Shown here piece by piece: positions 6,965 to 9,611 of a DNA stretch of 64,000 bases. Location: NCBI RefSeq assembly GCF_002802875.1, contig NZ_PEBI01000005.1, positions 1 through 64,000 on the forward strand. Direction: 5' to 3'. The notes below the pieces were generated by a model that had not been told where the DNA came from, ran no database searches, and worked only from the letters and a program-made list of their open reading frames with translations. The stretch is from Bifidobacterium primatium (GTDB lineage: Bacteria; Actinomycetota; Actinomycetes; Actinomycetales; Bifidobacteriaceae). The first letter of the stretch is position 1. Each line of letters starts with the position of its first letter. A program made the translations under genes and the position numbers.

Positions 6965-7128
6965 ATTCGACGGTCGTTTACGGCGTGTCGCAAGTATTTT
7001 CAACGGTTTTGATTCGTATGTCGACGACCGCAGCGGCATAAAGCCACGGAGGCGCCATTCTTCAGAGGACCCCTGCCTCATCCTCGCGCATTGCCGCACT
7101 CAGGTCATTGCGTGACCAGGTCATTGCG

Positions 7129-7442
7129 TGACATGGAATATATTTCCGTTCCATATGAACGTTCCTCGGCACGGTTCATGCCACGGAATACATGATCGAC
7201 GTCATATTGCCTTCCGTACCATATTTTCGTGGCACGGAAGGTGCAATCTCCCGTATACGACGTTCCCTGACAGGATGAACCGACTTTTCATTACCAAAAT
7301 CATTGCAATTCCAACGATTCGTCTACGAACGGACGGCGGCATCATGGCAGGGAATATCCAAACAAGCGTTGTATCCGCTCCCTGTCATGTTTCCGTGGCA
7401 GGGAATAGGCGAATACGAGCCTGCGACGTTCTGTGCCACGGG
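7129..7442. repeat. left copy of a 314-bp palindrome-rich repeat flanking pepC
   Basis: It contains ten alternating half-sites of the type TTCCnTGnCA or TGnCAnGGAA. They lie at offsets 0, 33, 50, 83, 101, 134, 216, 249, 267 and 300. The best palindrome is CTTCCGTACCA-8nt-TGGCACGGAAG (7211-7240). The same sites recur in the same order and spacing (within 1 bp) at 9192-9505. A non-palindromic block AATCATTGCAAT (7298) is also shared. The remainder of 6965-7628 holds no supported gene. Confidence 0.75.
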
Positions 7443-7642
7443 ATGCAATCGCAGACTGCCACGCAAATAACGTATTTCCATAGATGATGCTCCGCGGCAC
7501 GACCGCCCCGACTCTTCGCCCTAATCGAAATCCGCCGCCCATTTCCGCATCCGACGCCGTAATGTTTGCGGCCGTGCTTTCTCGTCCGCAATGTTCCGAC
7601 GCCGTAATGTTCTCGTCATTGGGGCGGGGTATGGAAATCCGT

Positions 7643-9151
7643 ATGAACGAAACGACCATGAATCAGAACGCCGCACTGACGGCGAACCAGCTGGGCGAGT
7701 ACTCCGCCCTGTTCAACGCCGATCGCGCGAACATCGTGGCGGCAAGCGCGGCCACCAGCAGCGGCGTGCTCAAGGCGGCGACCGACTATCGCGGACTGCG
7801 CGCCCTGCCCCGCGAATTCTCCATCGAGCTCAAGCAGGGGTCCGTCACCTCGCAGCGTCATTCGGGACGCTGCTGGATGTTCGCAAGCCTCAACGTGCTT
7901 CGTCAGGACGTAATCCGCCGTTGGGAACTCGACGACTTCGAGTTCTCGGAGACGTATCTGTTCTTCTACGACAAACTGGAGAAGTCGAATTACTATCTCG
8001 AACAGGTATTGGCGACGTTGGACGAGCCGACCGATTCGCGACTGTTCCAAGCCGTCAACGGCTATCCGGCCGACGACGGCGGATGGTGGGCGATGTTCGC
8101 CGCGTTGGCCGCCAAGTACGGCCTGGTACCGAAGTCGGCGTATCCGGAGAATGCGAACTCGCGCGATTCCGACGCCCTGACGCAGTATCTCAACGCGAAG
8201 CTGCGCGAGTTCGCACTCGAGCTGCGCACCGCATATGCGAACGGCACGAGCGTGGACGAGCTGCGTGGCCGCAAGAGCGCGATGATGAACGACGTGTACC
8301 GCATCGTGGCCGTGTCGTTGGGCGAGCCGCCGCGGTCGTTCGACTGGGTCGTGCGCGGCAAGGACGATGACGAGGACGACAAGGGCAAGAAGAACAACAA
8401 GGGCGAAGCCGTCAAGGCCGATGGAGCCGATGATTCCGCAAAGGACGGCGCCAAGAACGACGCCGAAGCGGCGAAAGACGCCAAGAAGCCCGACGACGGC
8501 TTCGTGAAGGGCAAGGTCATCGCCGAATACGGCATCACGCCCAAGGAGTTCTACGACAAGTACGTGAAGCAGGATCTCGACCGGTACGTCGGCCTGGTGA
8601 ACGCGCCGATGAAGCGCACACCGTTCGGCAGACTGTATCGTCTCGCCCACGAAGGCAACGTGGTCGGCGGTCAGCCCATCGAGTTCGCGAACGTGACGCT
8701 CGACGTGTTCAAGAAGGCCATCATCGACCAGCTGCGCGGCGGCAGGCCGGTCTGGTTCGCCTGCGACTGCGACCAGTTCGCATTGCGCGGCGAGGGCGTG
8801 TTCGACCGGGCGAGCGTGCGTGTGGAGGACCTGTTCGGCATCGAATACACGATGGGCAAGGGCGACCGGCTGGAATACGGCGTCAGCCCGTCGAACCATG
8901 CGATGACGCTGATCGGCGTGAATCTCGACGCCAGCGGCAGGCCGAACCGTTGGAAGATCGAGAACAGCTGGGGCAAGGATGCGGGCCGTGACGGCTACTT
9001 CACCGCGACCGATGCCTGGTTCGACGATTATGTGAACGAGGTAGCGATCCATGACGACGTGCTCGACGACGAGACGAAAGCCATCTTCGGCACCGAGCCG
9101 GTGATGGTGCAGCCGTGGGAGCCGATTTCGCGTGCCACGCGCTGCGAGTGA
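7643..9151 (+). CDS. pepC: aminopeptidase C (bleomycin hydrolase family, C1B)
   Basis: A cytoplasmic cysteine aminopeptidase that trims N-terminal residues from peptides. From the chosen start it is 502 residues. The papain-type catalytic set is intact: Q71 and C77 in QRHSGRCWMFAS, H419 in SNHAMTLIGV, and N441 in ENSWG. The family is usually about 445 residues. The excess is a Lys/Asp/Ala-rich insertion at residues 239-285 that looks disordered and is unlike the catalytic core. ATGs at 7631, 7643 and 7658 are possible; none has a strong ribosome site, and 7643 best matches the family N-terminus. The gene stands alone between two copies of a 314-bp repeat. Confidence 0.93.
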   Translation: MNETTMNQNAALTANQLGEYSALFNADRANIVAASAATSSGVLKAATDYRGLRALPREFSIELKQGSVTSQRHSGRCWMFASLNVLRQDVIRRWELDDFEFSETYLFFYDKLEKSNYYLEQVLATLDEPTDSRLFQAVNGYPADDGGWWAMFAALAAKYGLVPKSAYPENANSRDSDALTQYLNAKLREFALELRTAYANGTSVDELRGRKSAMMNDVYRIVAVSLGEPPRSFDWVVRGKDDDEDDKGKKNNKGEAVKADGADDSAKDGAKNDAEAAKDAKKPDDGFVKGKVIAEYGITPKEFYDKYVKQDLDRYVGLVNAPMKRTPFGRLYRLAHEGNVVGGQPIEFANVTLDVFKKAIIDQLRGGRPVWFACDCDQFALRGEGVFDRASVRVEDLFGIEYTMGKGDRLEYGVSPSNHAMTLIGVNLDASGRPNRWKIENSWGKDAGRDGYFTATDAWFDDYVNEVAIHDDVLDDETKAIFGTEPVMVQPWEPISRATRCE

Positions 9152-9191
9152 AATCACAGGAAGAGATTTTTGGAGATTTTGCTCTACGCCC

Positions 9192-9505
9192 TGTCACGGA
9201 ATCGTGGATTCATGCGGATCGTCGTTCCGTGACAGGCGGCGTGGTACGGAACGACAGCCTGCATCGGATTACGCGTTCCGTACCAAAATATCGTGGCATG
9301 GAACGCAAGAAATTGCCCTATCGTCGTTCCGTGCCGCAACAGATCACATCGATGATTTTCGAATCATTGCAATATCAACGATGTCGATGACGACGACCGC
9401 GTTGATATTGGCAGGGGAATAGATAATGCCCGCTTTTTGCATTCCCTGACACAAGAAAACGGCACGGAATGCGAAAACTCGGGTTTTCGACATTCCGTGC
9501 CGGGA
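9192..9505. repeat. right copy of the 314-bp repeat flanking pepC
   Basis: It is collinear with 7129-7442: ten TTCCnTGnCA/TGnCAnGGAA half-sites at offsets 0, 33, 50, 84, 102, 135, 217, 250, 268 and 301, and AATCATTGCAAT at 9362. It begins 41 bp after the pepC stop. The palindromic sites are better conserved than the sequence between them. Perfect pairs here include CCTGTCACGGAA/TTCCGTGACAGG (9190-9236) and TGGTACGGAAC/GTTCCGTACCA (9242-9285). Confidence 0.75.
9461..9501. terminator. 18-bp hairpin between convergent pepC and fhs
   Basis: GGCACGGAATG plus CGAAAAC pairs with GTTTTCG plus CATTCCGTGCC around a TCGG tetraloop, with one bulged A. The position between convergent genes suits a bidirectional terminator, although T tracts are weak. 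It is formed by the last half-sites of the right repeat. Confidence 0.5.
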
Positions 9506-9517
9506 ACCATGTCTTCA

Positions 9518-9611
9518 TGTCATTCTGAACGGAGGGCGCAAGCCCAGGGTCGAAGAATCCTGACCCGCGGGAATAAGATTCTTCGACTCACTTCGTTCGC
9601 TCAGGATGACA
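9518..9611. repeat. 94-bp REP-like palindromic element
   Basis: Outer arms TGTCATTCTGA (9518-9528) and TCAGGATGACA (9601-9611) enclose perfect inner arms GTCGAAGAATC (9549-9559) and GATTCTTCGAC (9577-9587). The sequence resembles the CATCCTGAGC...CGAAGAATC intergenic palindromes common in several bacterial phyla. Confidence 0.65.

Follow-up and report, generated by a model that had tools for sequence, protein, structure and literature searches.

The plasmid centromeres R1 parC and F sopC consist of iteron arrays on both sides of a core, phage att sites combine a core with arm sites, and phage stoperators are asymmetric, operator-like single sites dispersed between genes. The arrays described here, two of which flank a pepC-like gene, share features with all three. 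Like the centromeres, they place several regularly spaced sites on either side of a centre; unlike them, they occur in at least 20 copies in one genome, no par genes were found among 30 array-neighbour proteins scanned, and the right-hand array at pepC has no match among 72,556 plasmid records. As in att sites, inverted core arms surround 6 bp and arm sites flank them, but the copies are many, the arms are mirrored and no element is attached. As with stoperators, operator-like sites are dispersed between genes, but they form phased arrays instead of asymmetric single sites, and only two stretches in IMG/VR match, each with one unit. A phage or plasmid origin was rejected on the IMG/VR and plasmid results.

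BIMEs are arrays of REP elements that are bound by IHF, gyrase and Pol I. The present arrays are likewise dispersed, intergenic and species-specific, with regular repeats in alternating orientation (PMC2817692). They differ in having 10-bp half-sites in place of palindromic REPs, independent arms and a common core at a recurring helical phase, and in the absence of a Y1 transposase from 8 of 9 genus genomes. The intergenic, regular, alternating layout of REP/BIME elements was thus found, but compensatory complementarity and a cognate RAYT were not. Near-identical copies with defined ends, the mark of MITEs, were not seen, although relatives have a few similar pairs. With regard to CRISPR arrays, the repeats here are degenerate and their spacing is interrupted by the core. 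A search of the open-licence literature found no description of such arrays in bifidobacteria among the entries listed, although older ones may exist, and 'Bifidobacter' is absent from the available main texts of PMC12306157 and PMC2817692. The arrays are a real and unusual class of phased intergenic arrays. On balance, the sequence evidence leads us to favour the reading that both repeats beside pepC are members of a dispersed class of intergenic, helically phased, putative protein-binding arrays.

Organization of the arrays around pepC

The window is the whole stretch of 64,000 nucleotides analysed (G000:C5:1-64000), from a genome of 2.70 Mb (G000) in a family (f1) of 189 genomes. An array consists of 43-bp units every 51 bp, broken once by a gap of 72 bp that is sometimes about 10, 20 or 30 bp longer. 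Each unit is made of two facing 10-bp half-sites (TGGCASGGAA) whose starts are 33 bp apart. The central gap holds a core palindrome of 20-22 bp, and the numbers of units before and after it vary between arrays. The features around pepC are as follows, with strand given for the gene and none assigned to the array features.

7129..7171: left array unit 1, degenerate, arms 33 bp apart
7179..7221: left array unit 2
7230..7272: left array unit 3
7273..7344: left array central gap, 72 bp
7298..7319: left array core palindrome AATCATTGCAATTCCAACGATT, its centre 41 bp from the nearest half-site centre on both sides
7345..7387: left array unit 4
7396..7438: left array unit 5
7457..7499: left array, possible sixth unit, weak (score 17)
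7631..9151, + strand: pepC-like gene, Peptidase_C1_2, between both arrays and not tied to them
9192..9234: right array unit 1
9242..9285: right array unit 2, arms 34 bp apart
9294..9336: right array unit 3
9337..9408: right array central gap, 72 bp
9362..9383: right array core palindrome AATCATTGCAATATCAACGATG
9409..9451: right array unit 4
9460..9502: right array unit 5

The ten half-site offsets that the earlier note gave for each segment are exact in both, and amount to five inverted half-site pairs per segment; arm spacing is 33 throughout the left array. Degenerate half-sites include TTCCTCGGCA at 7162 and the unit at 9409. The block AATCATTGCAAT..CAACGAT that the note saw in both segments is present at 7298-7318 and 9362-9382, but it had been called non-palindromic and is in fact an imperfect palindrome, centred within the 72-bp gap. 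When 7129-7442 and 9192-9505 are aligned globally, the score is 41, whereas 500 dinucleotide shuffles average -35.1 (sd 6.7, max -16; z = 11.4), so that the proposed collinearity beats its shuffled null, with an ungapped identity of only 96/314. Half-sites are also better kept than the DNA between them, as had been claimed: the five corresponding spacer pairs are 30-52% identical, and non-corresponding ones average 34%. Because the spacers of the left and right arrays do not match, the two arrays share architecture and not a recent duplication; recent duplication of one array around pepC was rejected on this ground.

Short direct repeats lie beside the left array at 7101-7132 (CAGGTCATTGCGTGAC, twice in tandem) and 7550-7611 (TCCGACGCCGTAATGTT, twice, 45 bp apart). 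Directly after the right array, at 9519-9611, is another dispersed palindrome, TCATYCTGA..GTCGAAG..CTTCGAC..TCAGGATGA, which also occurs near other arrays (L072:4690-4800, L174:1220-1460).

Spacing and helical phase

Among 469 half-sites, facing pairs up to 70 bp apart are separated by 33 bp in 122 cases, by 34 bp in 16 and by other distances in 8. Back-to-back pairs lie 18 bp apart in 61 cases, 17 bp in 17 and at other distances up to 70 in 42, of which 27 fall at 67-70, which corresponds to skipping one site. Half-sites on the same strand are spaced by 51 bp (109), 50 bp (26), 52 bp (20) or other distances (21). For 25 cores, taken at up to 4 mismatches and with a half-site on both sides, the core centre is 41 bp from the nearest half-site centre on 42 of 50 sides, the others being at 51 bp (3), 71 (2), 40 (2) and 72 (1).

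The spacers are free in sequence but phased as well. Over 160 units the column variance of spacer A/T is 0.034, against a maximum of 0.0035 in 2000 permutations, and the power of spacer A/T peaks at 10.25 bp among 11 periods tried. The A/T peaks are found in the linker and, within the unit, close to positions 17-18 and 26-28, and this phasing suggests that a bending protein covers each 43-bp unit. Constrained half-sites at helically phased spacing, as looked for in a protein-binding array on duplex DNA, were found.

The first 12 kb of the window contributed to the unit, gap and covariation counts and the first 14 kb to the metric, phase and spacer-identity counts, the gene calls at the arrays and the comparison of whole arrays; placement among genes scanned the whole window, where only the two pepC arrays were placed. 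Locus L074, an inverted copy of L073, was excluded from the metric and A/T phase counts. These two stretches of another genome (G005:C1:121900-131900 and 199900-209900) are identical over the 595 bp compared, with mirrored gene layout, and represent either a real duplication or an assembly artefact.

Conservation of the sites and independence of the arms

In ten orthologous array pairs (nine between G000 and G005, one between G000 and G004), 58 of 634 half-site positions have changed (9.1%), against 161 of 914 spacer positions (p = 1.8e-6), and the core has changed at 12/154 positions against 96/462 in the flank of the centre (p = 1.3e-4). Counted in the reverse direction, the figures are 57/635 against 159/915 (p = 2.3e-6) and 14/152 against 80/413 (p = 0.003). 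The 150-bp flanks, which are partly coding, differ at 343/2887 positions (11.9%), so that half-sites change only modestly slower than these; the contrast is with the fast-changing spacers, relative to which half-sites and core change about half as fast. The selection on the sites proposed from the pepC arrays is thereby supported in orthologous arrays.

Variation in one arm of a unit is independent of variation in the other. Across 155 distinct units, which include orthologous ones, mutual information between arms at positions 1, 3, 6 and 10 is not significant (p 0.48-0.72) and equal letters are not above shuffles (p 0.27 or more): identical letters occur at position 3 in 61/155 units (64.9 expected) and at position 6 in 69/155 (69.0 expected). 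The 86 units of G000 alone likewise show no covariation. Arms of a second family, built on GATGGACT, pair slightly above shuffles (102/164 against 91.5, p = 0.018, 41 distinct units), which falls to 72/120 against 66.2 (p = 0.10, 30 units) after like units are collapsed; for the inner columns p is 0.064, and 0.19 after collapsing. Single-strand folding of the right array is strong (z = -7.8), as any inverted repeat folds so, and no Rfam family reaches its threshold at the arrays.

Spacer identity in G000 is 0.362 between arrays and 0.374 within them, against 0.30 when shuffled, and tandem duplication was rejected as the origin of units on the ground that spacers from one array hardly resemble each other more than they do those of other arrays. 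A small number of same-genome array pairs do resemble each other, namely L050/L056 (85% over 473 bp), the L077 pair (80% over 225) and the L086 pair (72% over 232).

Distribution of the arrays

The pattern TGNCANGGAA-N23-TTCCNTGNCA, at up to 2 mismatches, has 71 matches in G000 and the reversed pattern 1. At least 20 arrays are present in this genome: 19 with two or more units (window and L058-L072), plus L246, the remnant at L063:9856 not being counted; unit counts cover facing pairs 32-34 bp apart above the score threshold. At up to 1 mismatch there are 46 units in G000 and 42, 28, 22, 15, 3, 0, 0 and 0 in eight congeners, five of which therefore carry units. Family-wide, 19 of 189 genomes match, 13 of these lying outside the genus with 1 or 2 matches each. 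A scan of all species returned 22 stretches, with two or more units in 13/13 from Bifidobacterium and a single unit in 9/9 others. In genome G008, two exact units lie at a distance of 339 bp.

In another genus of the family, g13, three genomes carry similar units, TGCCACGGAAC..GTTSCGTGSCA (G084:C11:143050; G095:C11:158432 and 158589, 157 bp apart; G133:C13:34762), which from their sequence are possibly a relative of the arm family outside the genus.

The earlier note had suggested searching for the element away from pepC and for pepC without the element, and both turned up, the former at many loci and the latter in three related genomes. The pepC-type gene accompanies TGGCACGGAA arrays in G000 and G005 and stands without them in G001, G004 and G006; G002, G003, G007 and G008 have neither gene nor arrays at this place, and only relatives of about 40% identity elsewhere. 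The gap between pepC and the formate-tetrahydrofolate ligase gene carries TGGCACGGAA arrays in G000 and G005, and in the same gap of G001 and G006 the core sits, by eye, inside another palindrome (in G001 with CTTCTGGGGT arms). The gene is incidental to the arrays. Since arrays are gained and lost between species and the arm family is absent in three congeners, their role is not essential.

Position among genes

Eighteen of the 20 arrays could be placed in gaps, 9 tandem, 7 convergent and 2 divergent; L065 overlaps a called ORF and L070 has one side without a called gene. Other gaps at array loci number 48 tandem, 16 convergent and 25 divergent, and for the 18 placed arrays the orientation bias is not significant (p = 0.23 for divergent, 0.06 for convergent). 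Position was dropped as evidence for insulation on this ground. The nearest stop lies at a median of 46 bp (16 arrays) and the nearest start at 162 bp (11 arrays), and the Pfam labels of scanned neighbours are diverse.

Two arrays enclose genes at pepC, L064 and L068, and at L063 the genes have an array on one side and a remnant on the other. The stretches L063:4970-9951, L076 and L179 are one locus. It holds a single array in G001, GH3-MFS-TetR genes between array and array remnant in G000, and other genes in G005. The arrays mark insertion points at this locus.

The core palindrome and other arm families

The core has the geometry ATCGTTG-N6-CAACGAT, two 7-bp inverted arms around 6 bp. Matches to ATCGTTGNAATTNCAACGAT at up to 2 mismatches were found in 136 of 189 family genomes, and in 15-32 copies in 8 of 9 genus genomes, with a reversed control reaching at most 1 per genome and 4 in all. 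Ten of the 25 core copies in G000 are within the TGGCACGGAA arrays identified. Half-cores are of two interchangeable types, the variant half AACCGCAT being present in 7 of the 37 gaps listed. By eye, cores outside arrays lie in terminator-like hairpins that follow tRNA genes, ahead of other genes and close to DnaA boxes; one of the surveys behind this covered 30 loci, one per genome.

Other arm words surround cores in G001, G002, G006 and G000. GTGACCSGG stands 44.5-45.5 bp from the core centre in 6/7 loci and at 25.5 in 5/7. TGCTGGACT (3 loci) stands at 37.5 on one side and at 44.5-45.5 on the other where present, then mostly follows 19-bp steps, so that its arms are not exactly mirrored. GATGGACT is found at 39 and 75 from the core on both sides in 3/5 loci. 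The pattern GATGGACT-N28-AGTCCATC gives 17, 23, 9 and 1 units in 4 of 9 genomes (control 0), with unit starts 61 (60) bp apart and a 114-bp step across the centre in 14/15 rows (12 distinct places). A core-like block is present in each of the 14 centres of this family examined (12 distinct places), and in 7 centres it has the variant half AACCGCAT. The A/T tracts of this family, at 16-19 and 26-29 of 44, are positioned relative to the dyad just as those of the first family are. After duplicates and loci with too little flank were dropped, 3 or more mirrored 8-mers were counted in 20 of 63 core loci, against 2.4 expected and a null maximum of 9, although the total of mirrored 8-mers (191) is within the null maximum (197).

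By eye, core-centred repeats with further arm words are seen in genus g13 at L142 (G072) and L136 (G066), the words being GGTCACGGTCAC and, at about 33-34 bp spacing, TGCCACGGTA.

Alternative explanations

The earlier note had left three readings side by side, of which protein-binding arrays under selection is supported and the other two are not. Structured RNA, a chain of hairpins transcribed between genes, could appeal to the folding of the right array and to the slight arm-pairing excess of the GATGGACT family; the arms of the TGGCACGGAA family, however, do not covary and provide no covarying stem, Rfam matches are absent, and helical 10-bp steps would be meaningless for hairpins joined by linkers. 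The hairpin or RNA reading was rejected on the missing arm covariation, strong folding notwithstanding, and is barely credible. A miniature element that had bracketed pepC is at odds with copies that mostly have sites and not spacers in common, with the many loci lacking pepC and with the three related genomes that have the gene but not the arrays. By eye, no target-site duplication was noticed at empty sites, where the gaps are too different to define an insertion point. Non-autonomous mobile repeats of REP/BIME type, copied as hairpins by a RAYT-type (Y1) transposase, would be compatible with intergenic position, alternating orientation, species-specific families, strong folding and the few alike array pairs (L050/L056, L077, L086). 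We nevertheless hold them very improbable: complementarity of the arms is not kept, spacers of different G000 arrays are hardly related, and Y1_Tnp is missing from 8 of 9 genus genomes including G000, while its sole carrier, G007, has no units, on which last finding RAYT-driven repeats were rejected.

Ordinary transcription-factor operators, that is, clustered sites of one regulator controlling adjacent genes, appear unlikely. Degenerate half-sites under constraint are what such operators would have, some placed arrays do lie in divergent (2/18) or tandem (9) gaps, and a MarR gene adjoins one array and a TetR gene the array remnant, but the arrays are closer to stops than to starts, their neighbours are diverse in function and several arm families surround one core. 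We see a slim chance that the arrays are att-like recombination sites, with the core as recombinase core site, the flanking half-sites as arm-type sites and direct copies bracketing exchangeable genes. The core geometry with its two half-core types, the genes enclosed at pepC, L064, L068 and L063, and the different contents of the L063 locus in different species speak for it. No excision or inversion product was seen, however, cores also occur by themselves, ahead of genes or within terminator-like hairpins, and the L063 remnant is without a core, which fits homologous recombination better.

Proposed mechanism

In the protein-binding reading, which we prefer, a dimeric protein, probably one that bends DNA, would recognise the sites in duplex form, with a single dimer on each unit and the dimers on one helix face around the core. 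The core may be bound by a second protein common to bifidobacteria, and arm specificity may have diverged to yield array families with other half-sites around the same core. The predicted duplex protein-binding nature is well supported by the sequence data, and an insulator or nucleoid role is a guess. The most likely role, itself weakly supported, would be as compact nucleoprotein blocks between genes, either insulating adjacent transcription units or organising the chromosome; the sole pointer to insulation is position, which is not statistically distinctive and suggests it weakly.

More tentatively, Bifidobacteriaceae may possess a modular chromosomal site system, in which one core palindrome serves a conserved protein and mirrored arrays serve paralogous DNA-bending proteins, the platforms insulating genes or organising the nucleoid. 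The words (TGGCACGGAA, GATGGACT, GTGACCSGG, TGCTGGACT and others) would diverge fast between species and be exchanged over evolution, under a fixed geometry in which A/T tracts lie 5 bp from the dyad of each unit and distances from the core go in 10-bp steps. If so, the arrays would represent dispersed nucleoprotein sites built to a ruler, in which the centre is constant and the arm codes can be exchanged; such a class would differ from REP/BIME intergenic repeats and would be a candidate insulator or nucleoid-organising system for bifidobacteria. Which protein reads each word, and why words change but geometry does not, would then be testable.

Further occurrences of the core

At eight loci (L149, L150, L155, L157, L158, L191, L257 and L258), terminator-like hairpins that directly follow tRNA genes have, by eye, the core as their loop or centre. 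Also by eye, an element GGCGTGTCGC / GCGACACGCC recurs upstream of tRNA genes and often has a core or half-core next to it (window 6975-7010; L177, L139, L152, L153).

Clusters of DnaA boxes with a core in mid-cluster were seen by eye at L193 (G001:C21) and L199 (G002:C2), at 6-9 kb from dnaA. They are distinct from the boxes that adjoin this gene and could be a DnaA titration or reactivation site. A link to oriC was rejected, as 30 dnaA loci held no core at up to 3 mismatches and the core-bearing clusters are 6-9 kb away.

Two cores exactly 87 bp apart occur in G000, G001, G002 and G006 (L245, G000:C5:211383 and 211470; L174, L194, L209). In G000 (copy at L072) the pair has an NADPH-type oxidoreductase gene on one side and a sulfite reductase-flavodoxin operon on the other, and it is likely a regulated divergent promoter and a clue to the core-binding protein.
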